From IMG/VR virus record IMGVR_UViG_3300030329_003887, positions 1 to 57,423 of that record: a stretch of DNA of 57,423 bases; one strand, 5' to 3'. Source of the DNA: a virus. A program made the position numbers and the translations under genes. Below are positions 7,600 through 32,736 of this stretch, piece by piece; within the stretch, counting starts at the first letter, position 1; each line of letters starts with the position of its first letter. The notes under the pieces were generated by a model. It saw only the letters and a list, made by a program, of their open reading frames with translations. It made no database searches and had not been told where the DNA came from.

Positions 7600-8373
7600 A
7601 TGGCTGATGCTGACGAATATCGAAAAGCGCGCCAAGCGGCTGTTCAGAAGGCTCTAGGGGATGAGAATCAGAAGGCTCTAGGGGATGAGAAAGAAGATCC
7701 TGCTTTCGCTGAGCTTGTAGCGGACATCGGTCAACGCCGCAAAAAGGAAGATCGTGAAAAGTTTCTGAAGGAAGCTGCGGGTACAGTGGCAGAGGGTGCA
7801 AAGTCTCTGGGTCTAACAGCATCAGTAACCCCATGGGATCTGGGCATTGGTGATTATCTCTATGCCGTAGGTGAGTTGATTGACCCGGAAGGCGACCCTA
7901 AAACAGCAGCATTAGCAGCAGGCGCAGGTTTGGCAACAGGGGGAGTAGCGTCAGGCGCATTACTGGCAAGGACATTAGCTGCGAGAAAAGCATTGGCTGC
8001 GAAAAAGGCAGCATCCGCAAAGAAAGCGGCATCCGCGAATAAGGATATAGACCCTAAATTTTTGATATCCGATGACCCTCTGGAAGGGGGGAAAAAGATA
8101 GTAAAAACTAAAAAAGAAATGCTGCCAAGAAAATATGTTGACCCGCGCTTTCAGCCAGAAAAGGTGAAAGAAAAACTTCTAAATGAGTATTTTGAGAAAA
8201 TGGAGGCTGGGCAGGAGATACATATGCCAAGATTTCTGAATTTCTTATATACCGCCGGGTTAACCCAACATCCTAAAGTCCAGCACTATCTTAAGAAAAT
8301 GGGTATAGAGACAGATCCTCAAAGAAGAAGAGAAGCGCATCTACAGAAACGTGATCTTCTTGGAGAAGAATAG
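7600..8373 (+). CDS. Putative virion protein with N-terminal docking-type motif (257 aa)
   Basis: Unknown structural-region protein between terminase and portal; ATG 7600 follows TAGGAG. It opens with KARQAAVQKALGDE (residues 9-22), a motif found again in three other head proteins. The part QKALGDEN is tandemly duplicated by a 24-bp repeat (7646-7693). The middle has an Ala/Gly-rich hydrophobic stretch (about 104-126) that could cross or insert in a membrane, then a Lys/Ala-rich coil (AAKKAASAKKAASA) and a basic C-terminal half. It is possibly an ejected or head-interior protein; inference only. Confidence 0.75.
   Translation: MADADEYRKARQAAVQKALGDENQKALGDEKEDPAFAELVADIGQRRKKEDREKFLKEAAGTVAEGAKSLGLTASVTPWDLGIGDYLYAVGELIDPEGDPKTAALAAGAGLATGGVASGALLARTLAARKALAAKKAASAKKAASANKDIDPKFLISDDPLEGGKKIVKTKKEMLPRKYVDPRFQPEKVKEKLLNEYFEKMEAGQEIHMPRFLNFLYTAGLTQHPKVQHYLKKMGIETDPQRRREAHLQKRDLLGEE
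7646..7693 (+). repeat. 24-bp tandem duplication in coding sequence
   Basis: Two consecutive copies of a 24-nt unit beginning cagaaggctctaggggatga, encoding QKALGDEN then QKALGDEK. The near-identity of the copies implies a recent duplication of half of the docking-type motif. Confidence 0.8.
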
Positions 8374-10200
8374 ATGGGGCTTACGGGAAAACAGGTTCGA
8401 GATCTCATTAATGTCCACAAAACCCGCACCTCGGGTGAACGTGCGAAATGGGATCGGTATCTTCGGTATTACCGCTCAGAGTTCTGGGGCGAAAATGCTG
8501 ATATGAAAGATATCTATAGTGACGCCGAAGTTGCTATGGAGACTAACTATCCGTATTCATTTGTGGATTCGATGGTGAGTTCTATCGTTCCACCGAATCC
8601 ACAAGTCACAGTAGTTGCTAGGAACTCTGAGAAAAAAGAGTTTGCCCGCTATCGGGAAGCTCTTGTTAATGACACGCTGAAGAGGGAACGGGCGTCAACT
8701 CTTCTTTGGCGTCTCGCAACTTATGTGTCGGTCTATGGGCGTGGATTCCTAAAAGGTGTCTGGCGTTTCTCCCGCCAAAGGACTGAATATCGCGTTATCG
8801 ATCCTCGATTCGTTTTCTTTGACCTGTCGGCTGAACGGTGGGAAGACATTCGCTACCTTGTAGAGGTAACGACACTTACTCGGGATGAGTTCAAGCGGAG
8901 AGCGAAAGCTCCCCTTGATCCGAATAAGCCTCGGGGTAAGCGCCGATACAATGCTGACCAAGTAAAGCGGGCTAACTTCGGACACTACCCGGCATGGCTT
9001 AAACCCGCTTTGAAGAAGAGCCGGGATATCAGTTCGGAAGCTTTTGACTGGATTACGGTCTACGAAGTCTATGATTTTACCGGGAAGAAGTACTACCATT
9101 ATCTTGAAGACGAAACTGAACCGTTATTCAAGGATGATCTTCCATATCGTTTTGTGGAGAATCCGTATCGTCTACTGACATTCAATGACAATATGCAGAG
9201 TCTTGAAGGTATTTCAGACGTACAGTTGATCGACCGTCAACAGCAGATGCTCAATGAGTTGGATACTCTTGAGCTTCGGCATGCACAGTCTTCGATTCCA
9301 GTAACGCTGTTTCAAGCTGGGCTTGTCGATAATCCGGGAGCCTTTATTAAGGATTTGCTGGATGCGACTAGTCCCGGTGATGCAGTTGCTCTTCACGCAA
9401 AACCGGGCATCGGCATTAATGAGATCATCGCTAATACTCCCACAACGCAGTTGTCTCCCAGTTTCGAGACTATGCGGGAGCGGATTACGAAGACAATCGA
9501 ATTCACTCTTGGGCTACCCCAGTTTCAACGGGGTGTTGTCGGTGTAGCGGATGTGGCGACAGAAGTTGCTTTAGCAGAAACGGCTGTTCGAACTCGAAAT
9601 GGTCGTCGATTACAGGCACTCCAAGATGTAATTGAGTGGATGTGTCGAACTACTGTTGGTTTATATGAAGAGTTCCTTCCTTCGGAAAGTGATCTTCCAA
9701 TTCGATTGACTGGGCGAAGAGAAGCCCTAGTAGTAAATCGCCAATCTATGAATGCTCGGAATCCTCTACAGGCGGAAGACCCTTATAGTCAGCCGCATCC
9801 GATGGATTATGACTACGACGTAGTTCCATACTCTCCTACCGAGAACAGTCGGACCATCCAGTTACGCAATTTGGCACAGGTGTTGGATTTATTATCCTCT
9901 TCTGTTGATGTGGATAAGCGCCGTTTGGTCTCGGCTGTAATTGATCTACTTAATCTGGATCCTGACCTTTTAATCAGCGAAGAAGAGAAAGCAGTAATCG
10001 AACAGCAGATTCAAGCGCAACAGATGGGCATGGCCCCAGTTGGTCCGGGTGCTCCAGAAAAAGAAGTTTCTCAAGTAAATCAGCGAAACATTCGTGATAC
10101 AACTACAGCAGGTGGTCCTGTTGCAGCAACAGGTCCGCGTGTCGTTCTTCCCACAGGGGCCGCAGGTGGTCCCGGTGATCCCGCTCCCAAGTCGAGGTAA
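8374..10200 (+). CDS. Portal protein (head-tail connector)
   Basis: 608 aa portal protein forming the dodecameric vertex through which DNA is packaged and ejected. The ATG follows the previous stop directly (TAGATG) with GGAG upstream. Evidence is the characteristic order: N-terminal helices (KWDRYLRYYRSEFWG), NYPYSFVDSMVSSIVPPNP near residue 58, the YRVIDPRFVFFD clip/wing region near 148, and a long C-terminal helical barrel followed by a Gly/Pro/Ala-rich tail (about 560-608). Placement right after terminase and before scaffold and capsid is standard. Confidence 0.92.
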   Translation: MGLTGKQVRDLINVHKTRTSGERAKWDRYLRYYRSEFWGENADMKDIYSDAEVAMETNYPYSFVDSMVSSIVPPNPQVTVVARNSEKKEFARYREALVNDTLKRERASTLLWRLATYVSVYGRGFLKGVWRFSRQRTEYRVIDPRFVFFDLSAERWEDIRYLVEVTTLTRDEFKRRAKAPLDPNKPRGKRRYNADQVKRANFGHYPAWLKPALKKSRDISSEAFDWITVYEVYDFTGKKYYHYLEDETEPLFKDDLPYRFVENPYRLLTFNDNMQSLEGISDVQLIDRQQQMLNELDTLELRHAQSSIPVTLFQAGLVDNPGAFIKDLLDATSPGDAVALHAKPGIGINEIIANTPTTQLSPSFETMRERITKTIEFTLGLPQFQRGVVGVADVATEVALAETAVRTRNGRRLQALQDVIEWMCRTTVGLYEEFLPSESDLPIRLTGRREALVVNRQSMNARNPLQAEDPYSQPHPMDYDYDVVPYSPTENSRTIQLRNLAQVLDLLSSSVDVDKRRLVSAVIDLLNLDPDLLISEEEKAVIEQQIQAQQMGMAPVGPGAPEKEVSQVNQRNIRDTTTAGGPVAATGPRVVLPTGAAGGPGDPAPKSR

Positions 10201-10202
10201 TC

Positions 10203-12083
10203 ATGGCAATTCCCCCACCTAAGCCCCCGCCCGGTGCAGTTAAACGCGAATGGGGTGTTCCCGATGCGCCTCCACCAGAAGGGCCCGTTCCCCCTCAGAG
10301 GCAAAATATCGAATTTCCGACTATCCAGTCAGGACTTTCGCCTGAAATGGCTCGACTTGCAGAGAGCGTTAAGAATTTCCGCTCAATGTATACAAATCGC
10401 CCAAGTTTGGGGGAAGGCTCTCTTCGGGCTCTCGCAGATATGTATCCGCTTGCCGATTCGTTGATGAACCGCCTTAGTGCTGAGATTCAACAAGATCCAG
10501 ATTATAAGGCAGCGAGATCGGGATCGATTGAAGATGCGACAGCAGCCCAAAGGGGTAAAGCCCGAGTTTACGATAAGCTTTTAAGCGATGTCATGGACCT
10601 TCGGGGCCGAGCATTGACTGCGCGACAAGAAGTCGCAACTATGCCTACCGTTGCAGAAGGTAGAGAGGAAATGCTGGTAACAGCAGACCGCCCCGATCCA
10701 GCAGATGTGCAAGCTAAAAAAGAGGCAGATGCTCTCGCTGGAAGCGGCATGGTATCGGTCGCGGATCCAGCCCCTCCCCGGCCTGAGTTCATGAAAGAGG
10801 GGGTTCGGCTTCGAGAAGCGGCAAGACAAAAAGGGGAATACCCTCCAAATGAAAAGCCCCTCACCGACGCAGAAATGATGGCGAAGTACGGAAAGCCGAA
10901 AGCGGAAGCAAAGCCCGCCCCCCGGACTTCCCAAGAAGCCGCACCCGAAACTGTCGATCCTCTTGGAACATCTGAGCAACCAGAAGAGCTTGGAGAATCC
11001 CCTCAACCAGAAGAAGAACTTGGGGAATCTCAACAACCAAAGCTTGCTGCTCGAACCTCTGAAGAAGCTGCGCCTGAGCCGACCCCGAAAGAAACGGAAG
11101 CTGGAACAGATGCAAAGATAGAAGAAGAAGCTGATGCTGCGGAAGCGAAAACGCAGGCTGCTAAAGCTGAAGCAGACGAGGATCTTCCGGAATGGGTAAA
11201 AGAACTCGGAGAAGACGACGAAACTCTGAATGCTTATCAGCAAGCTCAAAAAGCTCGACGTGCTGCTGTAGAAAAAGCTCTCGGTGAGTCTCCGACGCCG
11301 GAACGATTAGAACTTGGCGAATCTCCAACACCGGAAAGGTTGGAGGAAGAAGAGCTTGGTGAAAGTCCATCGTGGTTCGGGGAGGGTCAACTTAAAAAAC
11401 TTCCATTACCTGCGGACGAGCCGCCCGGAGAACTCAAAACACTCCCACAAGAGTCTTATGCTCCGCCCGTAGACGCGGCGGAAGAAGCAGAACTTGGCGA
11501 ATCTCCGACGCCGGAACGATTAGAAGAAGAAGAGTTTGGGGAATCCCCACAAGACTGGATGGATGATTTTGGCGAGTCTCCAACAGAGCGCGTTTTCGAT
11601 GCATACCCGGACATTCCGGAAAGTATTCGCCGCCCTGATACTCCAGCAGAACCTGCTTGGATGGGCATGTCCGACGATGCGCTGAAGGCAGGCTCGGGTA
11701 TTGTCTCTACGCCGGATGCACGAAAAGCGGCAGTTGCAAAAGCGATGCGTCCGCAAAAGATTCGAGCCCCAGAAGGCTCTCGGGTCATTAGAGGTGACGG
11801 CGGTTGGGCGTATGCTGTTCTTCCTAATAAAGACATTAAGATTATCGGAGCCCCTAAAGGCCATCGACCGGGCGCATTATTGAAAGCGGGCTCTGACGGA
11901 TACTGGTCAGCTATCGCTAATAAGTTCGGTATCGATACTGTACCTGAAGTTTCGATGAAGGGTATTGAGCCCGATGAGCCCCTTACTCCAGAAAAGGGAA
12001 CACGGAAAAAAGGTGTTGGTAAGGCCCTTACCCGACTCCTAAGTGAGGGAATTAACATGCCTGAAAAGTTGCCAACGGATTAA
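10203..12083 (+). CDS. Repeat-rich head protein with GESP repeats and two docking-type motifs (626 aa)
   Basis: Acidic, low-complexity protein between portal and scaffold. It carries about eight copies of (L/F)GES(P/Q), often extended to LGESPTPERLEEEE, spread over residues ~260-465. Two copies of the head-protein motif are present: KARRAAVEKALGES (350-363) and DARKAAVAKAMRP (505-517). The N-terminus is Pro-rich. No enzyme motif is visible. The design (disordered linkers plus repeated short helices) suggests a flexible protein carried in or on the head, perhaps a scaffold accessory; this is inference. Repeat number is likely to vary between relatives. Confidence 0.75.
   Translation: MAIPPPKPPPGAVKREWGVPDAPPPEGPVPPQRQNIEFPTIQSGLSPEMARLAESVKNFRSMYTNRPSLGEGSLRALADMYPLADSLMNRLSAEIQQDPDYKAARSGSIEDATAAQRGKARVYDKLLSDVMDLRGRALTARQEVATMPTVAEGREEMLVTADRPDPADVQAKKEADALAGSGMVSVADPAPPRPEFMKEGVRLREAARQKGEYPPNEKPLTDAEMMAKYGKPKAEAKPAPRTSQEAAPETVDPLGTSEQPEELGESPQPEEELGESQQPKLAARTSEEAAPEPTPKETEAGTDAKIEEEADAAEAKTQAAKAEADEDLPEWVKELGEDDETLNAYQQAQKARRAAVEKALGESPTPERLELGESPTPERLEEEELGESPSWFGEGQLKKLPLPADEPPGELKTLPQESYAPPVDAAEEAELGESPTPERLEEEEFGESPQDWMDDFGESPTERVFDAYPDIPESIRRPDTPAEPAWMGMSDDALKAGSGIVSTPDARKAAVAKAMRPQKIRAPEGSRVIRGDGGWAYAVLPNKDIKIIGAPKGHRPGALLKAGSDGYWSAIANKFGIDTVPEVSMKGIEPDEPLTPEKGTRKKGVGKALTRLLSEGINMPEKLPTD
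11281..11578 (+). repeat. Degenerate GESPTPERLE coding repeats
   Basis: Repeats of about 33-36 nt encoding LGESPTPERLE with acidic spacers; the third positions differ between copies (for example cttggcgaatctccaacacc and cttggcgaatctccgacgcc). The amino acids are therefore kept under selection while the DNA has drifted. Confidence 0.75.
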
Positions 12084-12086
12084 TAG

Positions 12087-12515
12087 ATGCCCTTATATAA
12101 AATCGACTGTCCGAAGTGTGGGGTTGTAGACGATGTCTTCGCACATCGGGCTACGTCTGAGCAGGAGCATGAGTGTCCAGATTGTGGAGTTATGGCACCC
12201 AAGCTTCCCACAACATTTGCGACTGCAGGTATTATCTTTTCGAATGCTTTAGAGATTAACTCTGCTGGTTTAAAGTTAGAGTCGAACTCTGAGAAGAGAA
12301 AGTATCTAAAAGAAAATCCGACTTGCCGATTTGTAGAAAAAGATTCTCCATATTGGCAGCGTAAAGTGGAAAGGCTCCACGAACGTCGAGAGCAGAAAGT
12401 TCAGAAAAAGGGTTACAAGGATTGGAGAGAGTTTCAGTCTGAGAAAAAAATGGAAAAATCAGATTCGACTAAAGGCACAATTATGCTAGACGCAGGAGCT
12501 TCAAATGCCAGCTAA
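12087..12515 (+). CDS. FmdB-like zinc-ribbon protein (142 aa)
   Basis: N-terminus MPLYKIDCPKCGVVDDVFAH, then CPDCG about 20 residues on: two CxxC knuckles as in the FmdB family zinc ribbon, common as small proteins in phage head regions. The C-terminal half is charged and helical (WQRKVERLHERREQKVQKKG). It lies between two head proteins with tight spacing and overlaps the next start by 11 bp. The role is unknown; it may bind DNA or a structural protein. Confidence 0.82.
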   Translation: MPLYKIDCPKCGVVDDVFAHRATSEQEHECPDCGVMAPKLPTTFATAGIIFSNALEINSAGLKLESNSEKRKYLKENPTCRFVEKDSPYWQRKVERLHERREQKVQKKGYKDWREFQSEKKMEKSDSTKGTIMLDAGASNAS

Positions 12516-12918
12516 TGATCCCGCAGCTTACGACGCGATGTCTACAGACAAGTTGGGGGGAGATCTCTCGACCCAACTCGACCAGATGGTCCAGACCGCT
12601 ATGGATTTAGAATATCAGGAAACACCTCCGGGATCGGAGACTGATTTACCTGAAGACTTGTCAGCAACTCTGGAGGATGAAGTTGAGCCGTCAGTTGCCG
12701 CAGATGTTGAAGGTGCCGTTGCAGAAGTAATGGCAGCTTCCCCAGCTTCTCCAGAAGAGTTTATCAGCAATCTTCGGAGTGCTGGATATGAACTCGTAAA
12801 GGCGGGGGGACCGGCTGTTCCTGAGACAGCAGAAATGGCCCCAATCCCAGATGAAATGCCGATGCGTGAGGCAACTCGCGCTGCGGCTGAACGTGCTCTT
12901 GGTGGGGGTGTTGCATGA
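12505..12918 (+). CDS. Acidic head-region protein ending in a docking-type motif (137 aa)
   Basis: Begins MPANDPAAYDAM after AGGAGCTT. Very acidic, low complexity, with predicted helices. The extreme C-terminus MREATRAAAERALGG (from residue 120) resembles the short basic/Ala helix found at the scaffold C-terminus and in two other head proteins. Its TGA overlaps the ATG of the scaffold gene (ATGA), so it is probably made together with the scaffold. A scaffold accessory or second scaffold-like protein is a reasonable guess. Confidence 0.75.
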   Translation: MPANDPAAYDAMSTDKLGGDLSTQLDQMVQTAMDLEYQETPPGSETDLPEDLSATLEDEVEPSVAADVEGAVAEVMAASPASPEEFISNLRSAGYELVKAGGPAVPETAEMAPIPDEMPMREATRAAAERALGGGVA

Positions 12919-13778
12919 GCGAAGAAATTGGGGAAACTGTAGAGGCTTCGGGGGAAGTTGAAGCTGCAGAAACGATTGAGGCATCTGAGCCGGAAAGTGT
13001 AGAGTCTTCAGAAGAAACAACCGAAACGGCTGAACCGCTTGAGGCGGAACCTGCATTTAGTTTTGATGGGTGGGATGGTTCAATCGAAAGGCTTCCGTCT
13101 GACTACCATCCGGTCTACACCAATATCCATAATCGAGTCCAGTCTGAGATTGAAAGCTTGCGAAACTCGCTGACTTCAGACCGTGAGTTGTATCAAGCAT
13201 TGCTTGAGGGCGAGGATATTGGACAACAAGCTCGGGAAGAACTCGCTGCTGCCCGAAAAGAATTGGAGTCTATCAAAGGTGGCCAAACTAATTGGGAAAC
13301 AGAAAAAGCAAACTATGAGGCTCGAATTGCTGAATTTGAGTCTCAGGCTCAAGAAAGGCAAACCGCTGAACAAGCAGAAGCAAGCCGCTGGGCGCAAGAA
13401 TTCGAGACTAAACACCGTGATCTCCTTGGCGTGCCAGAATCTCGCGAAAAGTTTCTCGAATATTTAAACGCAGGATTTGCTCCTGAGACTTCGATTAGTC
13501 TTGCGAAAGAGCCGAACGAGGCAATCGTACACTCAGCAGTGTCTTATGTTGTTCAAGGTGTGCCTGAACATTATGCGCTCCGAATGGCTCGGGCAGACCA
13601 TGGTCGTCCTCAGACGGAGGCAGCAAAGCCCCGTGCTTCAGCTCAAATCACAGCCGGGGCAACAGCCTCAACAAACGTCCCTGATAGTGCCGAAAAGGGA
13701 GTTTCCGACAAGACTTTCAACATCCAAGACGCCCGAAAAATGGCGGTCTCCCGTGCATTTAAACGACGTACCGGGTAA
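12915..13778 (+). CDS. Capsid scaffolding protein
   Basis: 287 aa directly before the major capsid gene. It has an acidic disordered N-terminus (E/A/T-rich to ~50), a long central coiled coil (about 75-160, e.g. AREELAAARKELESIKGG), a globular segment and a basic C-terminal helix DARKMAVSRAFKRR (272-285). Scaffolds of tailed phages assemble the procapsid and contact coat protein through a basic C-terminal helix, so the last helix is probably the coat-binding part. Its motif recurs in three upstream proteins. Confidence 0.88.
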   Translation: MSEEIGETVEASGEVEAAETIEASEPESVESSEETTETAEPLEAEPAFSFDGWDGSIERLPSDYHPVYTNIHNRVQSEIESLRNSLTSDRELYQALLEGEDIGQQAREELAAARKELESIKGGQTNWETEKANYEARIAEFESQAQERQTAEQAEASRWAQEFETKHRDLLGVPESREKFLEYLNAGFAPETSISLAKEPNEAIVHSAVSYVVQGVPEHYALRMARADHGRPQTEAAKPRASAQITAGATASTNVPDSAEKGVSDKTFNIQDARKMAVSRAFKRRTG

Positions 13779-13813: not shown

Positions 13814-14890
13814 ATGGCCATTTCTGCCGAAGTTCTGAACGACGCTCTTCAGGAGCTTGCCCCCCGGTACCAAAATCTTTTTGAGACTTGGTCCCCCGTA
13901 ATGCAAAAGATTGTGAAAAACGGAAACGTTGAACGCAGTCGTCTTCGTGGTCCTTACAAGGAATTCCGCGTCATTACCGGCGGACCCGGTGATGTTACCC
14001 AGATCGTGGATGGCGGTGAGCGGCTTGCCGCAACTCGCGCTGACATCACGGCGAAGGGAAACACCTACGCTTCTCGCCTGATTTACTCTTTCCTTGTTCC
14101 TGATAAGGACATGGCAGAAGCAACCGGCCCGGCAGATGTTGAGCATCTTATCAAGCAGTATCCAGAAGCTGCTCTGATGGACTTCCACCAACGCATCACT
14201 AAGCAGTTCGTTAATGGTAACGGAAGTGGTTGCGGCGGATTCCTCACCCTGAATGGTGATACAACTTACAGCCCACAGGGAACAGCCCGTGCCGGAGCAA
14301 TCGACTTCGCAGCAAAGGCTTCCCAAACTGATACCGTCTTTGGCCTCGCCAAGGAAGGAACCTCGGGTACCACTGGCTGGTACAATGGTTATGGCAAGAT
14401 CACTTCCATGGCTTCCGATGGTATCTCAAAGCTTCGTCGGGAATACTTCCGCGCATCCCGTAAGGGCAAGCTTCTCGGCCCAGTCGATCTTCTGATGGCT
14501 GACGAGACAAGCTTCTCCAACTACATTGACCTTCTTGAAGATCGGATCATTGTCGAGGACGCTGTTAAGGGCGAAGCCGGTGTTGATGATGTGACTCAGG
14601 GTGTCAAGTTCCTTAAGGCCACAATGTACATCGAGGACTTCCTCGATACTGCGCAGTTCTCAAGCGGTGGCGCTGACGATGGCGTTATCTACGGACTGAA
14701 GACTTCTACTTGGCACATGTACACTCTCGGAAGTGATGACAAGATGGAAACCAAGGGCGACTTCTCAGTCCGTGGTCCTCTCCGTCGCCCCGACATGGAC
14801 GCCCACCAGTTTGAGTACGTTCTTTACATGGGAATGTACTGTGACTTCCTTGCCGCTAACTTCGCCGTTACCGGTGGAAACATCGCTTAG
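13814..14890 (+). CDS. Major capsid protein (HK97-fold type)
   Basis: 358 aa, expected size and position for the main shell protein, after the scaffold gene. ATG with strong TAAGGAGT. N-arm, then a long helix, E-loop-like region (RVITGGPGDVTQIVDGGERL), P-domain and A-domain; no transmembrane segment. Codon choice is visibly more C-ending and regular (aag, cgt, ctt, ttc) than in flanking genes, as expected for the most highly expressed product. The specific fold subtype cannot be named without structure prediction. Confidence 0.92.
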   Translation: MAISAEVLNDALQELAPRYQNLFETWSPVMQKIVKNGNVERSRLRGPYKEFRVITGGPGDVTQIVDGGERLAATRADITAKGNTYASRLIYSFLVPDKDMAEATGPADVEHLIKQYPEAALMDFHQRITKQFVNGNGSGCGGFLTLNGDTTYSPQGTARAGAIDFAAKASQTDTVFGLAKEGTSGTTGWYNGYGKITSMASDGISKLRREYFRASRKGKLLGPVDLLMADETSFSNYIDLLEDRIIVEDAVKGEAGVDDVTQGVKFLKATMYIEDFLDTAQFSSGGADDGVIYGLKTSTWHMYTLGSDDKMETKGDFSVRGPLRRPDMDAHQFEYVLYMGMYCDFLAANFAVTGGNIA

Positions 14891-23104: not shown

Positions 23105-24679
23105 ATGACTAAAAAAATGGATCCAGTATTAGAAGAAGCTCTTATCCGGGCGAGCCCTGAAATCAATCAGTACTTACAGGCTAGCAAGGGCAAAAGTGCG
23201 CTTGAAAAGTTTAGTGACTTTTTTCGGTTGGCTCCGGATACCCGACCAGAGGAGCTTCGCCAAGTTCGGGCGAGTTCGGATAGAGCCCGCGCTAATCGAG
23301 ACGCCCTTATTCAATCTAAAGAGGAACTCGAAAGGAAGTACTACGGTGAGTTCGTAGCACTCCAACAAGCAGCGCAAGAGGGCGATCGAGAGGCCAGAAA
23401 AGCTCTCATGTCAAAGACACCTGACCTCATCAAACATATTGTTGAAGTCATGAAAAGTTCCAATCAAGTTCGCGGCCAGAATGCAACTGCTCTCGCCAAT
23501 TTAGTTGGAAAAATGCACGAAGCAGACAATGAATGGGCTGCTGCAACGGACATAAATCACGCCTCATCGGATACTCAACTACGCTTTGCTGATGCGTGGA
23601 CTGCAATGACACAGTTCACAGATGCGGAGGGGAATCTCAATATCGCAGATATTGGATCACAACAGCAAGTCCTTAATCAACTAACAGAGCTTTTTACTGA
23701 GGCTAACGCTAGGGGAGATCATTCTAATGTTCTTGGGGCACTGAATGAAAACCTCAAACGGAGGGGAGTATCTGGTGGCGTGCGGGGACTTTATGATGCG
23801 CTGAATGCTGGTTCAGTATCGAATCCAGATGGCATGACCTATGTCGGCTCGACACCTGAGATTACAAACTTCAATAGAGCACTCGAACCTTCATTGAATC
23901 TAGAAGCAGCAGCCCTTGATGTTCGCCAACAAGCTAAGGATGAGTACTCTAAGTTTTCGACTAAGCTCTCAAAATCTTTGGGAGGGCAGGGGGCAGGCGC
24001 ACTCCTGAAGTACATAGATAAAGTTTCAGCACAAGGACACGCATCCCTCGTTGAGTACGATGAGTACATGAAAAAACGGGAAGCCGAACGGGGAGTGACT
24101 CCGGGAACGGAAGATCTGCTCAGTCGAGTTTCGGAAGATGCCCGAAAACGTCTTCCACATAACTTTGATAAGCTTGACCCAACGCAACAAGAGCTACTCA
24201 TTAGAGCCGGAGAACAATGGCAAATGGCCGAAGCTCTGAAGAATACGCCGATTTACGACACTCGAAAACAAGCAGCGTATGCGAGTATCCAGAATCATCC
24301 TGCTTTTATGGAATGGTTTGAGCAGTCCAATTTTACTGATCTGAATAAGGGTACCGAGCATTTTATCGGGCTTCAGCAGCAAAACATGGAACGCTTAGAG
24401 AATCAATACGGTGGAGAAGCCGGGTACCAAGCTGAGGTAAAAGAACGTCGAGGGATTGCAGGAGACCCCCGTACCGTCACTGGACCTAAGAAAGCTCGAA
24501 TGCAAGCTCTCAGACAGAGATTGCCGAGTCTTCCTGCAGAGGAACCAGAAAGTTCGCCTGCCGCATCGGTTGGTGGGGCAGTACTGCCCACAGATAAAGG
24601 GGGAGAAGAAAAGACGAAGACGGTTTCACCTGTGACTCAACATTATATGAAGCAGCTCCAACCGAGTAAGAGCGTATAA
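23105..24679 (+). CDS. Ejection (internal virion) protein, medium, gp15-like (524 aa)
   Basis: Soluble, strongly helical protein without cysteine clusters or membrane spans (EELERKYYGEFVALQQAAQEGDREARKAL...), as in T7 gp15 (747 aa), which builds the periplasmic tube during genome ejection. The C-terminal ~60 residues are disordered (PAEEPESSPAASVGG). Its stop overlaps the next start by one base. Function is by synteny with T7-like phages. Confidence 0.72.
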   Translation: MTKKMDPVLEEALIRASPEINQYLQASKGKSALEKFSDFFRLAPDTRPEELRQVRASSDRARANRDALIQSKEELERKYYGEFVALQQAAQEGDREARKALMSKTPDLIKHIVEVMKSSNQVRGQNATALANLVGKMHEADNEWAAATDINHASSDTQLRFADAWTAMTQFTDAEGNLNIADIGSQQQVLNQLTELFTEANARGDHSNVLGALNENLKRRGVSGGVRGLYDALNAGSVSNPDGMTYVGSTPEITNFNRALEPSLNLEAAALDVRQQAKDEYSKFSTKLSKSLGGQGAGALLKYIDKVSAQGHASLVEYDEYMKKREAERGVTPGTEDLLSRVSEDARKRLPHNFDKLDPTQQELLIRAGEQWQMAEALKNTPIYDTRKQAAYASIQNHPAFMEWFEQSNFTDLNKGTEHFIGLQQQNMERLENQYGGEAGYQAEVKERRGIAGDPRTVTGPKKARMQALRQRLPSLPAEEPESSPAASVGGAVLPTDKGGEEKTKTVSPVTQHYMKQLQPSKSV

Positions 24680-27600
24680 TGGCAGACGAAAAAGAATTCC
24701 CTGATTCAGGCTTTCAACCGGGATTTTTTCTGACGCTTGCCCAGCAGGCAGACGATGATAAGTTCTGGGAAAGAGCTGAAGCGGACTACAAGCGAGCTAT
24801 CGGAGAACCGGTAGACGAGCCTGTATTCGCCACAGGGGCTGTTCCTAAACCAAAAACACCAGCACAGATTGCTAAACAGCAACAAAATATAATTGATCTG
24901 GGCACCCCAGAATCAGAACTTCCTCAGCTTTCTCCGACTCTGGCTCGACACGCTAGCCCAGAAGTTGCTTTGAATCTTCGTCATAGTCTTTCTCAGGGTA
25001 CTCAGATTGACGAGAAAGAAAAGCATATGTATTTCACTCGACATTATATTCAGAGTGAGCCTTTTCGAAAGAGAGTTGATTTAGATTTCGAAGCGGGCAA
25101 TATGACGCCCGCACAACAAAATCGTGTGCAGTTTGCCCGTGAAGTTCTCGCTCAAATGGGAAAATCTTCTGAGCTTAAAGATCTTCAGAATGAAATTGAT
25201 TCTGTCGAAAAAGCCATAGCAAATCTTCCCCAAGCGCCCCGCGCTCGTACCGATGTTATTGTCGGCAGCTCTTACGACAAGGAAGACCAAAAGCTCATAG
25301 CGGAAAGGGGCACTCTTGTTCGGGAACTAAAAAAGAAAAAAGCAGAAATGCTTAAGTCCCAAGAAGGGGTAGAGTCTTTCTTAGCCGGGGTAGATAGTGC
25401 GGTTATCCAAACAACGGGGGTAGGCCCGTCTAAGCGTCTTCGTGTCAACACCACAAGAGATCCCCTAACAGGGAAAGTAGCACTGGATATTGATACAACA
25501 TTTCCACTGCTGACGAGAGCTTATACGAGAGACATTCTCCAAGATCGGGGTTTGTCCTACACAAATGCTTCTCCAGAACAACTGAGAGAAGTCCACCAGA
25601 TTGCACACGATAAAGCTGCTAGCGATATCATTTCAGTTGGCCTGCGAATGCGGGATTCGATTTTCTATGACTCGAATGTTCCGGTAGTTGAAGACCTTGC
25701 GGAAAAACCAGCATGGGAACGTCGTCTCCTGTCTTTCTCAAAACGAAAGGTTGGAACCGGAAATACCCACTGGATCGGCAGAAAGATTGGATTGCCCCAA
25801 GATACTTATGGTGTCTTCAACCCCACAGTTGACGAGCTTGCACGAGAAGGGACATTATCTTGGACAATGCGCATGAGTCCGATGGACTATCAAGCGATCA
25901 AGATGAAGATGATTCGAGATGTTCTAACAAAGAATGGCAAAGAGTTGATGGATATCGATGATGCGGCTCTATATGCTTACGCTTACATCAATCCTTTCCT
26001 ATCCTCAACAGTTGCAGCAGCTAATCTGCCAGCAGGAGCATTAGGGATAGAACTAAGCGCCCCTGATACCGATGATATTATGCGGGACTTGGGCATCACA
26101 CCCGAACAGGAAGTTGAAACCTTTCTTCGGGGCCACTACCACTTAGACGAAGGCCGAGCTATTCAGGGTGAAATGTCCGCCATGATGGCAAAAGCATTTG
26201 GGGCGTCGAAAGCGGAGCAGTTCAAAGCAAGGGAAAGCACAGAGAATAGTAAATGGTCTGCTGTCGCGCCATTCATGACGTACTTTGTTGATCCTGACCT
26301 GATCACACTGAGTCTTCTGGGCTTTGGAAAGGGCATCAGCATGGCCTTAAAGCTCCATCGCTTCCATAAACTGAACAAGTTTGCGGACAGGATGGATGAA
26401 GCAGCGGCTGATCCTGCCATGACCTATGATAAGTTTCGACAAACTTTGCGTGAAGAAGACCCAGCTAAAGCGCAGGTACTACAAACATACGTTGAGGGTA
26501 AACTGGGAGAACCTTCTGGGACAATCAGTTCTCTCGACGAACATCGCCGAACAATCAAACAGGCGTATCGTGATTCTCAGAAAGAACTAAAGAATACCGC
26601 CCCAGAAGCGGTTGATACGATTCCCTATAAGCAAGTGGAGACTATGCTGGAGCGGGAGCGCATAGTTGATACCATTACTGCGAAAGAAAAAATAGCCGCT
26701 AAGGCTATTGATAACTTTAAAAAAGCAGAAATAGCTTTAAACGACGCCAAAGCAAATGTTCTGCCAGTCCCCCGGAGGCAGACTCATTGGAGAACAGAGT
26801 TTGAGCCCGGAGGTGTGGCTCGACCAGCACCTAAGAGTGCTGAGGAAGCGGCCATCGCAGCTAAGGTTGATGCCCGAATTCCACATTCTCCGAAGATTGG
26901 GTCGATCACGTCAAAAGAGATTCGAGAAGCTGCTGCGGCGGTTCCCGAAGGTTCCCCTTCTGGTTTTGTTTCAGGTATTCGATTCCAGATGGATCTCGGA
27001 GAGTTGAAGATCCTTTCAGCCGAAATCCCGGAGAATCTTCGGCATAGGGGTATGGGCTTCGAACTCTACTTGCAGGCTTTGAAAGAGGCAAAAAACAAGG
27101 GGTATGGTTTCCGTTCAGGTGATGGACTTAAACAGCCCCCGGTTATGAAACTCTACAAGGATCTTGAAGAAGCAGGAGTCCCACTTCGAGTTTCCGTAGA
27201 AGATGTACCAAACACTACACTCCGTGTTCACGATTTTAGTCTTCCGGCCAATGACTTAGCCAAGCTTGATCTCGATAAAGTTCTAGAGGCGTATCAGGCT
27301 AAGCATGCGGACAAGGGTCCGGGTCCGCTCTTCAATCGACCGGGGATGGTTGTTCGAGAAACTGCGCCGCAGTTTCTTCTTCCACTATTCGATAATCTGG
27401 AAGAAGCGGCGTCTGCTGTCCAGAAGGCGAAGGGCCAAGTCAAAAAAGCTAAGGATGATCTGAGACAGTTCGATAATTCTTTGCCATACGGTCCAGAGCA
27501 TCCGTTTGTTGTGGACTCTATGGGCAGGCAGTTTGACATTAAAGATGTCATCAAACTGAGGAAAGCAGCCGAAAAAGACCCATACATCTACAAGATCCTT

Positions 27601-30600
27601 GATGACATGATTCAACTCAAGTCAGAAGAAGTAGCTCTCTTGCGCTTTGGTGTTGATGATATCCAAAAAGAAATGCGGAAATTGTATATCGAATACCGAA
27701 AGCAGAAAGGTATTCGGCGTGGGTTGGAGAAGTCAGCCGCAAAGCTTCGAGAATACGAGGCTCAACTGGCTATAGAGAACAGCCTAAGCGTACCTTTCCA
27801 GAAATACGTTTATATGCAGAACCAAGTTCAGCAAATGGTGGGTCAACTTTCACCTGTATCAGCTAAGATCGATGAACTTAATTCGATTGAAACTAGTTTT
27901 GTCGGGATATGGAAACATCAAAAAACTCTGGATGATTTTCGCAAAACAAAAGACCTTTCTCCTGATTTTGTTCAAATACAAAGAGATCCCCTTCCGGGCC
28001 AGATTATGGAAGGTCTTGAGACAAGTCCCGGAGATTTTAATCGCCGTATGGCAGACCTCTTTGATGAATCGGGGGCTTACCTAACAGCGGAAACCACTCG
28101 TCGGTCTTTGATTATAGAGCTTCAAACATTCCTAAATGAAAGGAAAAAGAATGCCCTGAAACAGCACAATCTGGTTGAAGCTCCCGCCTCCCATAAAGAG
28201 CTAATCGACCAGATTACTGACCTCAAAGCTATTAGAAAAGAAATAGAAGATACGATAAAGAAAACAGAAACCGAACTCCGGGTCATCGCATCCTCTTCAT
28301 CACGCCATCAGTGGTTTGAACTGCAAAGGAAAGTACTGAAGCTGCAAGATGCGCGTTCGGTTATCAAAGAAGAGCTGGACGCACATAAGGCTTCAAGTAA
28401 AGTCGATTACATCGGGACTCCCCAACTTCCCCGGATGTTGCGTGACGCAGGGTTAGAGCGGGAGTTCGAAGCAGCCACACAATGGATTGAAAAAAACGGT
28501 TCCGTAAAAGCGAGAGAGGTTCTTGAGGACTTAAAGATTGGGGAGAGAGGATCAACCTTTTTGGGGCTGAACCGGGTAGATTTCCAAAAAACTCTAGAAG
28601 CTATTCGGGAATCGAAAGGCCCAATAGGGTGGAATAAAAAGCTTAAAGAGATTGAAAGCCGCTACAAGGATGCGCACTGGGAACTTAAAGAGGCCCGTAA
28701 AGATCGGCGATACGTCAATAAGATGGCGCAAAAAGAATACGATCTGCTGACCGCTAAGGCGGAAGCGGGTGATGTGGCTGCCCAAGAAGCGCTGAAAGGT
28801 GTCATCACAAAAGAACAAGAAGATCTGTATAAAAAACTTCTGGACCAAAGCCGAGCAGAAAGCCGACGATTGAAGAAAGCAGAAGAGTTGTTCGTTGGGG
28901 ATGTTGCTCTTACAAAAATGGAAGAAAACTATGCGCTTTTAAATAAGAAGCGCCGGTCACTCTTACCTCAGATAGTTCGGGCAAACCGAGAGCTAAAATC
29001 TCTTGTCTCAAAAGCATATGCGGCCAACCCACAGAAGCTCAAAGCTGCCATTAATAAGCGAAAGGAAGACCTAAAGGGTACCAAGGATCAGAAAGCTAAA
29101 GCTAAAGGGACTACTCTGACTGGGCAGATCCTGTCAGAACAACAGAAAGTGATTGATGCTCTGTTCAGAACCCACCAAAAAGTAAAAAAGGCTAAGAAGG
29201 CTGCCCGTTGGCGGAAGATTGCAAAGCAGGGAGCTGATGATTTCCGTAAGCTGGCCGAAGTATCCCGCAAAAAAGCTTCTACGATAAGCCTATTCCCCCG
29301 AACGGGCCTTCAAACAGTAAAAGAGAATGCCCACATTGGGCAAAAAATCTTTGGCAAAGCCATCAAAGAAGTGGGTCCAGCGAATGTACCGATGCCCAAG
29401 ATGGCTCTTCGACTTACCCCAGATGTGACAGAAGCTTCCCTCGATACAGCAAATGGGATTAAGATTTCAGGCACCGTGGATGATGGGCAGTTTCTCATTA
29501 AAGAGTTTGAGGTTCCCAGTCCGCTGAAGAACTCGACAGAAGAAGCCCACGCTATCGCAGAAACATTCGACTTTGCTCATCGCAATAGCTATTCCTTAGT
29601 CCTCAGCCCTGAAGCTGGGAACATGCGCTTTAATCTACAAGCTGCGCAAGTCCGCTTCTCAGGCAAAAAGGGCCAGTGGACATCGACGAGAGAAATGATT
29701 CAAGAGTTGGAGTCCCCCATTGTTCGGGAATCATTAGAGTTCAATAGTTCTATTTTGGAAATCAATCCCGCTGGGCTACGGAATAAAATCGTCAAAGAGT
29801 TTGGAGAGGACGCTCTTGAGCAGACGATTGCCCGGAATGGGGCAGATGGTCAACTCCTGAAATCAGTCTTAGAATCCAGTGGACCCGTCAGGATTACAGC
29901 AAGAGAGGCGGGAGCCTTACAAGATGACTTAGCAACCTCTCTGGCTGTCTGGGCAGAAAGATTATTACCAGAGAATCAAGAGCTTAAGCTGGCATCTGAA
30001 ATGGCTGAAGCCAGTATTGCTTACTCGATCAACAATCCCGGTGTAAAGGGGCTTCTGTACAAAGGCCTTAATGCCCTTGTCTGGCAGTTTGACCCACAAC
30101 TTGCCCGAATCGGATTGGCCAGTAAGCATCAAGATGACATTTTAAAAGCGGGTGAAAATCTCTTTGACCAGTCCAAGGGGGAACTTGCCAGTATTCTTCG
30201 GGGTGTAGGCGACCAAGACGCAGCAGTCAGTAAAATACATATGTATTTGGATGGTACGCAATCTTACACAATGACGATGAATCGAACGACTGTAATGAAT
30301 GTCGGACCGAAGACGCATTTTGAGCGGGCAAAAGAGTATGCCGCTGCCGATAAGGGCACCTATGCCCTAAAAGGCGGGAAGAAAGGGGCAAAAGAAACCC
30401 AGAAAGTCGATGCTGCCCAAGGCTATGCTGATGTCCAAAGCCTTCTCCGGGACGGAGCGAACCCATTTATCCTTGGTGTATCCCGCATGTGGCTACCCCG
30501 AGGATGGACAGCTTCGCAGGGACTGGGAAAAACTCTCTACTCTCAAGCTCGGAAGGTTATCGCCAACTCAAGCTCATATGAAGAAATGGCGAAAAAGATG

Positions 30601-32736
30601 TGGGGTTTGACAGCAAAGCATCTTGAGCCACATGTCGGAAAAATAGAGTTGAAGGATGGCACAAAGATTACGAATCTTGATGCTCGTGTTGTCCGTGTCC
30701 ATACCCTTGGCGCAATGGCGACTCTTTGGGGCTCCATGACACATGATCTGGGCCGCATTGCCCGGAAATCTATGGGCGGTGTAATCACTTCGGCTGAAGC
30801 AAAAGACCTTACTCGGTTCTTTTCAGGCGAGTTTACCAGTGTCAAAGATGTGGATCTCGTATTCAACACCCTACGCACTCTTGGGCACTCATCCGCAAAC
30901 CCCAAGGTCAAGATACTATTTCGGGGCCTCGCACGAACATCAGAAGAACTCACCCAAAAACTAGTGAACACTGCTCTGGGCCCAGATGGGGATAATCTTC
31001 TGGCTCTTGCCCCGATCCGTCGTCAGCTTGCTAAGTCTCTGGATGGTGACATCAAGACTCTGGATGCCCTCCCAGCGTTAGACCCGGCTGCTGGAACTAA
31101 CTCGGCGTTCTGGCTTGGCCGAAAGTATCTATTAATATTGAAGCAGGGCCTTACTCGTGGATTCTTTATTCGAAGCGAAGGCCATATCCAATTCCAAATG
31201 GCTGGAGATTGGAATCAAATGTGGTTTGAAAAGAAGATCGGCTTTACCACAGCTTCAAAGATCTTCGCACAAAATGAGGTGATGACCATACCAGTACTTG
31301 GTCGAGCCCTACAAGACCACATTAGTAATACATCTAAAAAGGTCGGACATAAAAAACCAGTCTTAAGATCAACTGTGGAGACCATTTATAATCCACACAT
31401 CGCGGACTTCTGGCAGGGGAAAGATTTCTTTGTTCGAGTGGGCAAAGATGGCCCAATCCATTCGGGCGATCAAATCCGAAAGGCATTTATCGAAGGTGGA
31501 GTTCTGGAAACTCCGATCGCCGAAGACCTTGTCCGGGAAGCTCAACAGCTTTCACGAACGACTCCGGAGTTCAGAAAACTCAGTAAACTCATGGGCGCGG
31601 TTCCGGCCCGAGCAAAGAAGTTTCTTAAAGATTGGGATCGAATAGTTGAAGATTCTGTTGTCGCTATGCAACAGCGGCAGCGGGTGGGGACAGGTTTAAT
31701 CCTCATGAAAGAGGGCCACAGCCTCAGCGAATCCGTCAACTTAGTCAATAAAGCTATCTATGATTGGAAGCATGGGATTTCTCAAGCAGAGCTTCTTTAC
31801 CATCTTCAGATTCTTCCATACTATCGATGGTTCCGGCTTGCCCAAAAGCAGTTCTTCTCAGCCATTCTGGATCCCATCACTAAACCGAACATCCAAAAGA
31901 TGGCAGAGACCTTGGCGGGGCAGACACAGTTCAATGCTTTCCGACAAATGTATCGAGGGCAACAAGATGTGATGCCCATTCTCTTGGGGATGGAAAGTCC
32001 GGAAGAGCTTTTTGAGACTCGTTCATATCATGATGCTCTTGCGCCAGCCTATGTTCCACCTTGGATGAAAGAAACATATCCAGTAACTGGAATCGAGCCA
32101 GCTACTCAGGCGGAGATAGAACGAAAAGCCAAGACAGGGCGGACGGTTACCCACTGGGCAAGTATCGGCCCAATGCAATCTCTTGTAGATGTTGCTAAGA
32201 TTAATATGGGTTTCGCCCTCTTGGGGGGATCAATCATTGCCATGGCAAAGGGCGAATCGGCTGCAGCCAAAGACCTCCGAATCAAAGGTCTTGATGGTTT
32301 AACTGGGCTGATGTACCCCTTTCTTCGTGAAACAATTAATCCGATGGTAGGTGTTACCCAATACCACCCCGAACTGGGGGTTGAATGGCAGCCGATTAAT
32401 GATTCTCACGCTGCCATCATTCAAAGTATAGATCCTGATGGCGTAAGGATAGACCCAGAAACAAAAAAACCTTATGGCCATGCAAACTGGAGATTTCTTT
32501 TCTCGGCAGTCCCCGGATTCATTGGAACATTGCCAAGGATTGTTGATGCTGCATATGTAAAAAACCGAGGTTTAGATTCAGATATCTGGGATTATACGAA
32601 GAGCCTTATTGGTAACTATACTCGCTGGAATCGGACCTATCCAGTAGACATTAATGTCGAAGCCCAGAGGCGAAGAAGAGACGCGGCTGTCCACCTTTCT
32701 GGACTAAAAAGAAAGGCTGCTCTTGAAAAACAATAA
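24679..32736 (+). CDS. Giant ejection/internal virion protein with embedded GNAT-like domain (2,685 aa)
   Basis: The largest gene, in the place of T7 gp16 (1,318 aa) but twice as long. Long coiled-coil/helical stretches run over roughly residues 120-240, 610-720 and 900-1560. Residues ~755-850 look like a GNAT acetyltransferase core: a strand, then PENLRHRGMGFELYLQAL with the acyl-CoA-binding R-x-x-G-x-G form at 788-793. The C-terminal third is globular (for example HSLSESVNLVNKAIYDWKHG, then LPYYRWFRLAQKQFF) and ends in a basic coil. I see no lytic transglycosylase motif and no N4-type virion RNA polymerase motifs. It probably enters the host with the DNA, so the GNAT-like part could modify a host protein; inference. 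Confidence 0.85.
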   Translation: MADEKEFPDSGFQPGFFLTLAQQADDDKFWERAEADYKRAIGEPVDEPVFATGAVPKPKTPAQIAKQQQNIIDLGTPESELPQLSPTLARHASPEVALNLRHSLSQGTQIDEKEKHMYFTRHYIQSEPFRKRVDLDFEAGNMTPAQQNRVQFAREVLAQMGKSSELKDLQNEIDSVEKAIANLPQAPRARTDVIVGSSYDKEDQKLIAERGTLVRELKKKKAEMLKSQEGVESFLAGVDSAVIQTTGVGPSKRLRVNTTRDPLTGKVALDIDTTFPLLTRAYTRDILQDRGLSYTNASPEQLREVHQIAHDKAASDIISVGLRMRDSIFYDSNVPVVEDLAEKPAWERRLLSFSKRKVGTGNTHWIGRKIGLPQDTYGVFNPTVDELAREGTLSWTMRMSPMDYQAIKMKMIRDVLTKNGKELMDIDDAALYAYAYINPFLSSTVAAANLPAGALGIELSAPDTDDIMRDLGITPEQEVETFLRGHYHLDEGRAIQGEMSAMMAKAFGASKAEQFKARESTENSKWSAVAPFMTYFVDPDLITLSLLGFGKGISMALKLHRFHKLNKFADRMDEAAADPAMTYDKFRQTLREEDPAKAQVLQTYVEGKLGEPSGTISSLDEHRRTIKQAYRDSQKELKNTAPEAVDTIPYKQVETMLERERIVDTITAKEKIAAKAIDNFKKAEIALNDAKANVLPVPRRQTHWRTEFEPGGVARPAPKSAEEAAIAAKVDARIPHSPKIGSITSKEIREAAAAVPEGSPSGFVSGIRFQMDLGELKILSAEIPENLRHRGMGFELYLQALKEAKNKGYGFRSGDGLKQPPVMKLYKDLEEAGVPLRVSVEDVPNTTLRVHDFSLPANDLAKLDLDKVLEAYQAKHADKGPGPLFNRPGMVVRETAPQFLLPLFDNLEEAASAVQKAKGQVKKAKDDLRQFDNSLPYGPEHPFVVDSMGRQFDIKDVIKLRKAAEKDPYIYKILDDMIQLKSEEVALLRFGVDDIQKEMRKLYIEYRKQKGIRRGLEKSAAKLREYEAQLAIENSLSVPFQKYVYMQNQVQQMVGQLSPVSAKIDELNSIETSFVGIWKHQKTLDDFRKTKDLSPDFVQIQRDPLPGQIMEGLETSPGDFNRRMADLFDESGAYLTAETTRRSLIIELQTFLNERKKNALKQHNLVEAPASHKELIDQITDLKAIRKEIEDTIKKTETELRVIASSSSRHQWFELQRKVLKLQDARSVIKEELDAHKASSKVDYIGTPQLPRMLRDAGLEREFEAATQWIEKNGSVKAREVLEDLKIGERGSTFLGLNRVDFQKTLEAIRESKGPIGWNKKLKEIESRYKDAHWELKEARKDRRYVNKMAQKEYDLLTAKAEAGDVAAQEALKGVITKEQEDLYKKLLDQSRAESRRLKKAEELFVGDVALTKMEENYALLNKKRRSLLPQIVRANRELKSLVSKAYAANPQKLKAAINKRKEDLKGTKDQKAKAKGTTLTGQILSEQQKVIDALFRTHQKVKKAKKAARWRKIAKQGADDFRKLAEVSRKKASTISLFPRTGLQTVKENAHIGQKIFGKAIKEVGPANVPMPKMALRLTPDVTEASLDTANGIKISGTVDDGQFLIKEFEVPSPLKNSTEEAHAIAETFDFAHRNSYSLVLSPEAGNMRFNLQAAQVRFSGKKGQWTSTREMIQELESPIVRESLEFNSSILEINPAGLRNKIVKEFGEDALEQTIARNGADGQLLKSVLESSGPVRITAREAGALQDDLATSLAVWAERLLPENQELKLASEMAEASIAYSINNPGVKGLLYKGLNALVWQFDPQLARIGLASKHQDDILKAGENLFDQSKGELASILRGVGDQDAAVSKIHMYLDGTQSYTMTMNRTTVMNVGPKTHFERAKEYAAADKGTYALKGGKKGAKETQKVDAAQGYADVQSLLRDGANPFILGVSRMWLPRGWTASQGLGKTLYSQARKVIANSSSYEEMAKKMWGLTAKHLEPHVGKIELKDGTKITNLDARVVRVHTLGAMATLWGSMTHDLGRIARKSMGGVITSAEAKDLTRFFSGEFTSVKDVDLVFNTLRTLGHSSANPKVKILFRGLARTSEELTQKLVNTALGPDGDNLLALAPIRRQLAKSLDGDIKTLDALPALDPAAGTNSAFWLGRKYLLILKQGLTRGFFIRSEGHIQFQMAGDWNQMWFEKKIGFTTASKIFAQNEVMTIPVLGRALQDHISNTSKKVGHKKPVLRSTVETIYNPHIADFWQGKDFFVRVGKDGPIHSGDQIRKAFIEGGVLETPIAEDLVREAQQLSRTTPEFRKLSKLMGAVPARAKKFLKDWDRIVEDSVVAMQQRQRVGTGLILMKEGHSLSESVNLVNKAIYDWKHGISQAELLYHLQILPYYRWFRLAQKQFFSAILDPITKPNIQKMAETLAGQTQFNAFRQMYRGQQDVMPILLGMESPEELFETRSYHDALAPAYVPPWMKETYPVTGIEPATQAEIERKAKTGRTVTHWASIGPMQSLVDVAKINMGFALLGGSIIAMAKGESAAAKDLRIKGLDGLTGLMYPFLRETINPMVGVTQYHPELGVEWQPINDSHAAIIQSIDPDGVRIDPETKKPYGHANWRFLFSAVPGFIGTLPRIVDAAYVKNRGLDSDIWDYTKSLIGNYTRWNRTYPVDINVEAQRRRRDAAVHLSGLKRKAALEKQ

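Follow-up and report, generated by a model that had tools for sequence, protein, structure and literature searches.

The capsid targeting sequences (CTS) of phage T4 act on the core (PMC9026906), and in phage P1 residues 1-30 of DarB suffice for capsid targeting (PMC9024508). In phage P22, assembly requires the C-terminus of the scaffold, and cargo is encapsidated when it is fused to scaffold residues 141-303 (PMC9962691). The analysis described here concerns a short motif in the head genes of an uncultured phage, represented by a stretch of 57,423 nucleotides (IMG/VR record IMGVR_UViG_3300030329_003887, positions 1 to 57,423), which is called the window below. The motif has approximately the form [D/E]-x-[R/Y]-x-x-A-A-x-x-A-[L/F/M/V], a short amphipathic helix, and it is shared by the C-terminus of the scaffold and by accessory proteins of the same head module. 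We consider it likely that this helix targets proteins into the procapsid, the capsid-binding C-terminal helix of the scaffold having been reused as a portable tag.

The sharing was analyzed across relatives gathered from IMG/VR by alignments of the capsid, portal and terminase proteins, which yielded many genomes with the same gene order. A 13-column profile was trained on nothing but the scaffold C-termini of the window and these relatives (24 scaffolds with 21 distinct tags). Accessory proteins were defined as those, other than core proteins, whose genes lie between the TerS-like gene and the capsid gene. At a threshold of at least 10 bits, 60 of 149 accessory proteins in this first set of genomes matched the profile, versus 8 of the 504 remaining proteins; with the threshold raised to 14 bits, the numbers were 33 and 0. 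Matches near a protein end occurred in 49 accessory proteins, versus 0.8-1.2 when sequences were shuffled, whole or locally, with composition preserved (none of 200 shuffles exceeded 6) and 3 when they were reversed. The motif is thus carried in the relatives by many more proteins than the four in which it was originally noticed, mostly within 25-30 residues of an end: among the 60 accessory matches, 20 start no more than 25 residues from the N-terminus and 28 finish no more than 30 residues from the C-terminus.

The profile was then frozen and applied to a second set of 44 further genomes, whose capsid proteins are less than 90% identical to those of the first set and to each other. The scaffolds of 39 of the 44 matched, as did 35 of 195 accessory proteins versus 3 of 377 controls (p=1.5e-14, a Fisher value that is overstated, as are the others, since homologous proteins were counted as independent; the ratios are nonetheless large and were repeated in genomes outside the profile). 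The core proteins, namely the terminase, the zinc-ribbon protein, the adaptor and the tail-region proteins, are without the tag. No homologue of TerL, of the zinc-ribbon protein (0 of 26), of the TerS-like protein or of the proteins encoded just downstream of the capsid gene reached 10 bits. The first-pass annotation of this DNA had held that a similar frequency of the motif in unrelated genes of related phages would speak against a tag; the motif proved to be rare in such genes, and the idea survives.

Tag carriers are mostly fast-evolving accessory proteins, small ones encoded around the portal gene and larger ones whose genes lie between those of the TerS-like protein and the terminase, and they have little in common besides the tag. 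In most relatives, the product of the gene directly upstream of the scaffold gene has a C-terminal tag. The Pfam domain ART-PolyVal, of ADP-ribosyltransferases (ART), was found in seven distinct proteins of the family, all in relatives and encoded among virion genes. N-terminal tags are clear on the ART-PolyVal proteins of L007, L154, L155 and L114 and weak in L027; the tag of the L178 protein is displaced to about residue 70, and the L200 protein has none. A GNAT acetyltransferase (L009:1648-2127) also has an N-terminal tag, with only weak versions in its L001 and L007 homologues. Domains of these types are typical of phage-packaged, injected proteins, with T4 Alt as the classical ART example (PMC5512222, PMC9026906). 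Because the carriers include ART-PolyVal and GNAT proteins, which are typical of injected proteins, the tag is tied to virion cargo by evidence that is independent of the motif.

Some further arrangements were seen in individual relatives. A 1131-aa (amino-acid) protein (L039:12175-15570) has a tag-like helix at each end (RRDQRQDAAKQAI and KQRQDAIRKAM), and five small head-module proteins encoded at L038:5421-7419 have tag-like ends, several beginning with MP-(L/M/I) followed by DR-xx-AA. Small HNH-like endonuclease genes, recognized by eye, lie beside the portal gene (L003:1875-2117, L004:2543-2791 and L032:10803-11039); inspection by eye revealed no convincing tag in the HNH-like or the beta-rich head-module proteins.

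The anatomy of the scaffold was predicted as well. In the AlphaFold2 (AF2) model, a disordered acidic arm (residues 1-43) precedes coiled-coil helices (62-166) and a small helical region, after which a predicted disordered linker (247-266; predicted local distance difference test, pLDDT, below 50) leads to an isolated helix at 270-286 that is the tag. No significant structural relative of this model was found in the PDB. An alignment of 23 scaffold sequences, 20-47% identical to the window protein, keeps few columns, and these include R274, A277 and A281 of the tag (invariant or nearly so) together with a PRxxAxxTxGA stretch ahead of the linker.

The tags of accessory proteins and scaffolds also vary together in part of the family. 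When five clades from the first set are compared, the tags of accessory proteins are most like the scaffold tag of their own clade, a result that ranks first among the 120 possible pairings. In clade E (L035 and L042), tyrosine replaces the usual arginine in the only scaffold seen and in each of the four accessory tags, and elsewhere in only 1 of 70. This clade-wise covariation of sequences suggests one shared partner. Scaffold tags of another type, (W/L/F/Y)R-xx-VAR-x-AL, were found in 21 later genomes (L165, L166, L169, L173, L181 and relatives).

The head module of the window has the gene order TerS-like, small gene, terminase, 257-aa, portal, 626-aa, zinc-ribbon, 137-aa, scaffold and capsid. 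The genes of interest and the five copies of the motif are as follows.

7600..8373, forward strand: 257-aa accessory protein with an N-terminal tag, predicted from sequence to be cargo
7624..7656, forward strand: tag KARQAAVQKAL at the N-terminus of the 257-aa protein (residue 9), terminal score 14.3
8374..10200, forward strand: portal protein (PHROG 156, E=9.5e-14), no tag, given for context
10203..12083, forward strand: tagged accessory protein of 626 aa that evolves fast, predicted to be cargo or an internal head protein
11250..11282, forward strand: tag KARRAAVEKAL, internal, residue 350 of the 626-aa protein, a weaker case; MAEARSEAAKNAL in the L001 homologue
11715..11747, forward strand: tag DARKAAVAKAM, internal, residue 505 of the 626-aa protein, ahead of a conserved domain
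12087..12515, forward strand: zinc-ribbon protein of the same module, no tag, negative control
12505..12918, forward strand: 137-aa acidic protein with a C-terminal tag
12868..12900, forward strand: tag EATRAAAERAL at the C-terminus of the 137-aa protein (residue 122)
12915..13778, forward strand: scaffold of 287 aa (acidic disordered arm, coiled coil, linker and tag helix in the AF2 model), directly upstream of the capsid gene
13728..13760, forward strand: tag DARKMAVSRAF in the C-terminal helix of the scaffold (residue 272)
13814..14890, forward strand: major capsid protein with the HK97 fold (PHROG 9953; model from a relative compared by Foldseek), the putative receptor of the tag

All five copies that the first-pass annotation had listed in four head proteins are present where it placed them, and a regular expression for the motif, run on the six-frame open reading frames of the window, matched those copies only. 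The copy at residue 505 has counterparts in L001 (STPEARKDAVARAM) and L005 (STPEARKDAVAKAM). The copy at residue 350 scores below 6 bits with a profile trained without the window's clade. That same profile finds six non-scaffold positions of at least 12 bits in the window, versus 0.27 in shuffles; among them are a few in other parts of the genome and an alanine-rich stretch at residue 120 of the 257-aa protein, which scores as high as true tags. Pairwise BLASTP of the four tagged proteins gave only weak alignments, on the motif or on low-complexity acidic stretches, and no clear larger shared domain. The evidence from the window alone is moderate, and it is the family-wide comparison of sequences that we regard as decisive.

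Several other features of these proteins deserve mention. The first 19 residues of the 257-aa protein align with the N-terminus of the L007 ART-PolyVal protein, itself tagged (10 of 19 identical, pairwise E=0.027), with no match past that point; no ART-PolyVal or GNAT-type domain was detected in the window's own tagged proteins. In the 257-aa gene, a perfect 24-bp tandem duplication at positions 7644-7691, just where the tag ends, gives QKALGDEN twice and is probably a recent event. The acidic middle of the 626-aa protein (residues 263-456) contains nine copies of (L/F)GE(S/D), several of them followed by PTPERLE, and L001 has similar LGES/LRES repeats. Farther downstream, a 2685-aa protein (24679-32736) matches a profile of the relatives' stand-alone GNAT proteins (E=5.9e-18); it is without the tag and is possibly a large injected or internal virion protein.

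On the reading that we favor, the tag helix of the scaffold, held on its flexible linker, most likely binds to the inner side of the HK97-fold capsid protein while the shell assembles. Accessory proteins with the same helix at the N- or C-terminus would take some of the scaffold binding sites, or join the scaffold core, and would thereby be trapped inside the procapsid; at least some of them would then be injected with the DNA as effectors. The capsid protein is the putative partner because the tag is the C-terminal helix of the scaffold and because of what is known of other scaffolds; docking, like encapsidation and injection, is inferred. The first-pass annotation had suggested a common docking tag that draws several proteins into the procapsid. 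The recruiting role it proposed is well supported by the distribution and position of the tag, the type of cargo and the conservation in scaffolds, and docking to the capsid protein itself is argued by analogy.

Some observations weigh against targeting by a shared capsid-binding helix, in addition to the overstated p-values mentioned above. More than half of the accessory proteins have no clear tag, alanine-rich helices yield some chance matches, and both copies in the 626-aa protein are internal. A natural read-through in L021 joins the scaffold tail to the capsid protein, and the model of this fusion (mean pLDDT 57) shows the HK97 fold and is too poor to reveal docking. Finally, among the 21 genomes with valine at column 8 of the scaffold tag, 0 of 98 accessory proteins have a terminal tag of the valine type, and only one has such a tag anywhere; because accessory tags do not follow the valine-type scaffold tags, the covariation is not general.

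In the main rival reading, the partner of the tag is not the capsid protein but the scaffold core (by self-association) or the portal, and cargo would thereby join the growing core as with the T4 CTS. The clustering of tag genes around those of the portal and the scaffold would fit this arrangement. However, the AF2 model places the tag outside the coiled coil, as a free C-terminal helix on a flexible linker, and the corresponding end of the P22 scaffold is a coat-binding domain (PMC9962691); we judge core or portal binding to be unlikely, while giving it more weight than any other alternative. Another common role in the head, such as DNA binding or marking for removal or ejection, is suggested by the basic residues in many copies and by the fact that scaffolds must exit before DNA enters. 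The conserved residues, however, are the alanines and one arginine or tyrosine, with wide variation off the alanine face, and prohead protease families found no match among the ten head-module proteins searched (divergent proteases could escape such a search), making a role of this kind improbable.

The tag might also be a functionless leftover of descent, with accessory genes having copied the 3' end of the scaffold gene, and indeed module and motif are shared and the accessory tags of some clades resemble their own scaffold tag. Yet the codons of the window's five copies differ at many shared residues, so that recent duplication at the DNA level is ruled out as their source; similarity beyond the tag is slight, and the tag also occurs at N-termini, shows evidence of selection and is retained in proteins that otherwise diverge strongly. 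We therefore find such a leftover very unlikely. Coincidental resemblance among alanine-rich helices has in its favor the modest separation from other matches within the window alone, where the residue-120 stretch is a case in point. Against it stand an enrichment of 20 to 60 times over composition-matched shuffles and the fact that matches are confined to the ends of proteins and to a single gene module, all of this repeated in genomes outside the profile; the shuffles, the reversed sequences and the frozen-profile test rule chance out, and we give it almost no weight.

If the helix does target proteins into the procapsid, a broader view becomes attractive, towards which we lean slightly: an uncultured phage lineage would use the docking helix of its scaffold as a universal address that works at either end of a protein, a gain of about 13 residues would make an effector into cargo, and sequence would suffice to read off much of the injected set. 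Proteomics is usually needed to learn what a phage head contains and which proteins are injected. With a tag common to scaffold and cargo, the cargo, including effectors of unknown function, could be predicted across a large group of uncultured phages. Such a tag would also suggest an easy way for effectors to enter the virion as cargo, and a portable peptide with which to load proteins into HK97-fold shells.

Among cultured phages, no relative by capsid protein was detected. The capsid, portal and 626-aa proteins were unmatched in the phage collection (50,697 phage records for the capsid search), and a search of 84,980 genomes of bacteria and archaea found no relative of the capsid protein. 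Judged by its terminase, Roseobacter phage CRP-7 is the closest cultured phage, at about 25% identity, and its scaffold and neighboring proteins lack the tag. In herpesviruses, the protease and the scaffold have a common C-terminal tail through overlapping genes. Searches of an open-access library turned up no natural phage in which scaffold and cargo have a tag in common, which does not prove absence; targeting tags as such are already known, and what was not found in the literature searched is separate genes with a common scaffold tag across a whole phage group.

Comparison with other systems brings out both likenesses and differences. A Foldseek search with the capsid-protein model of a relative matched HK97-fold capsids (E=1.3e-8) and also encapsulins, in which a short peptide directs cargo enzymes into an HK97-fold shell, much as proposed here. 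Encapsulins, however, have neither scaffold nor genome packaging, whereas portal, terminase and scaffold are all encoded in this phage, and their peptides are not known as sequence relatives of the tag. The polyvalent proteins of phages are likewise predicted packaged and injected effectors encoded near virion genes, with the same ART-PolyVal domain; the accessible part of that survey describes no packaging signal, whereas the effectors here carry a common tag. With P1 DarB, the N-terminal 30 residues carry a reporter into the capsid, but one protein was studied and sharing with the scaffold was not reported, whereas dozens of proteins share one motif here. The P22 scaffold resembles the one described above in being a mostly helical protein encoded beside the capsid gene with a helical C-terminal element, which is a helix-turn-helix (268-303) in P22 and is modelled here as a single helix (270-286) after a disordered linker. 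Cargo loading in P22 involves an engineered fusion, whereas here natural proteins, predicted to be cargo, carry the helix themselves.

The closest functional parallel is the T4 CTS, a short peptide common to unrelated internal proteins (IPI-III and Alt, a packaged ART), the effectors among which are ejected into the host. The T4 sequence is an N-terminal propeptide of about 10-19 residues that is cleaved by gp21 and targets the core, whereas the tag described here can lie at the N- or the C-terminus, is the helix with which the scaffold itself ends and has a different sequence, and for these reasons it does not belong to the T4 family. Judged from its sequence and distribution, the tag would be functionally like a T4 capsid targeting sequence, outside the T4 family.

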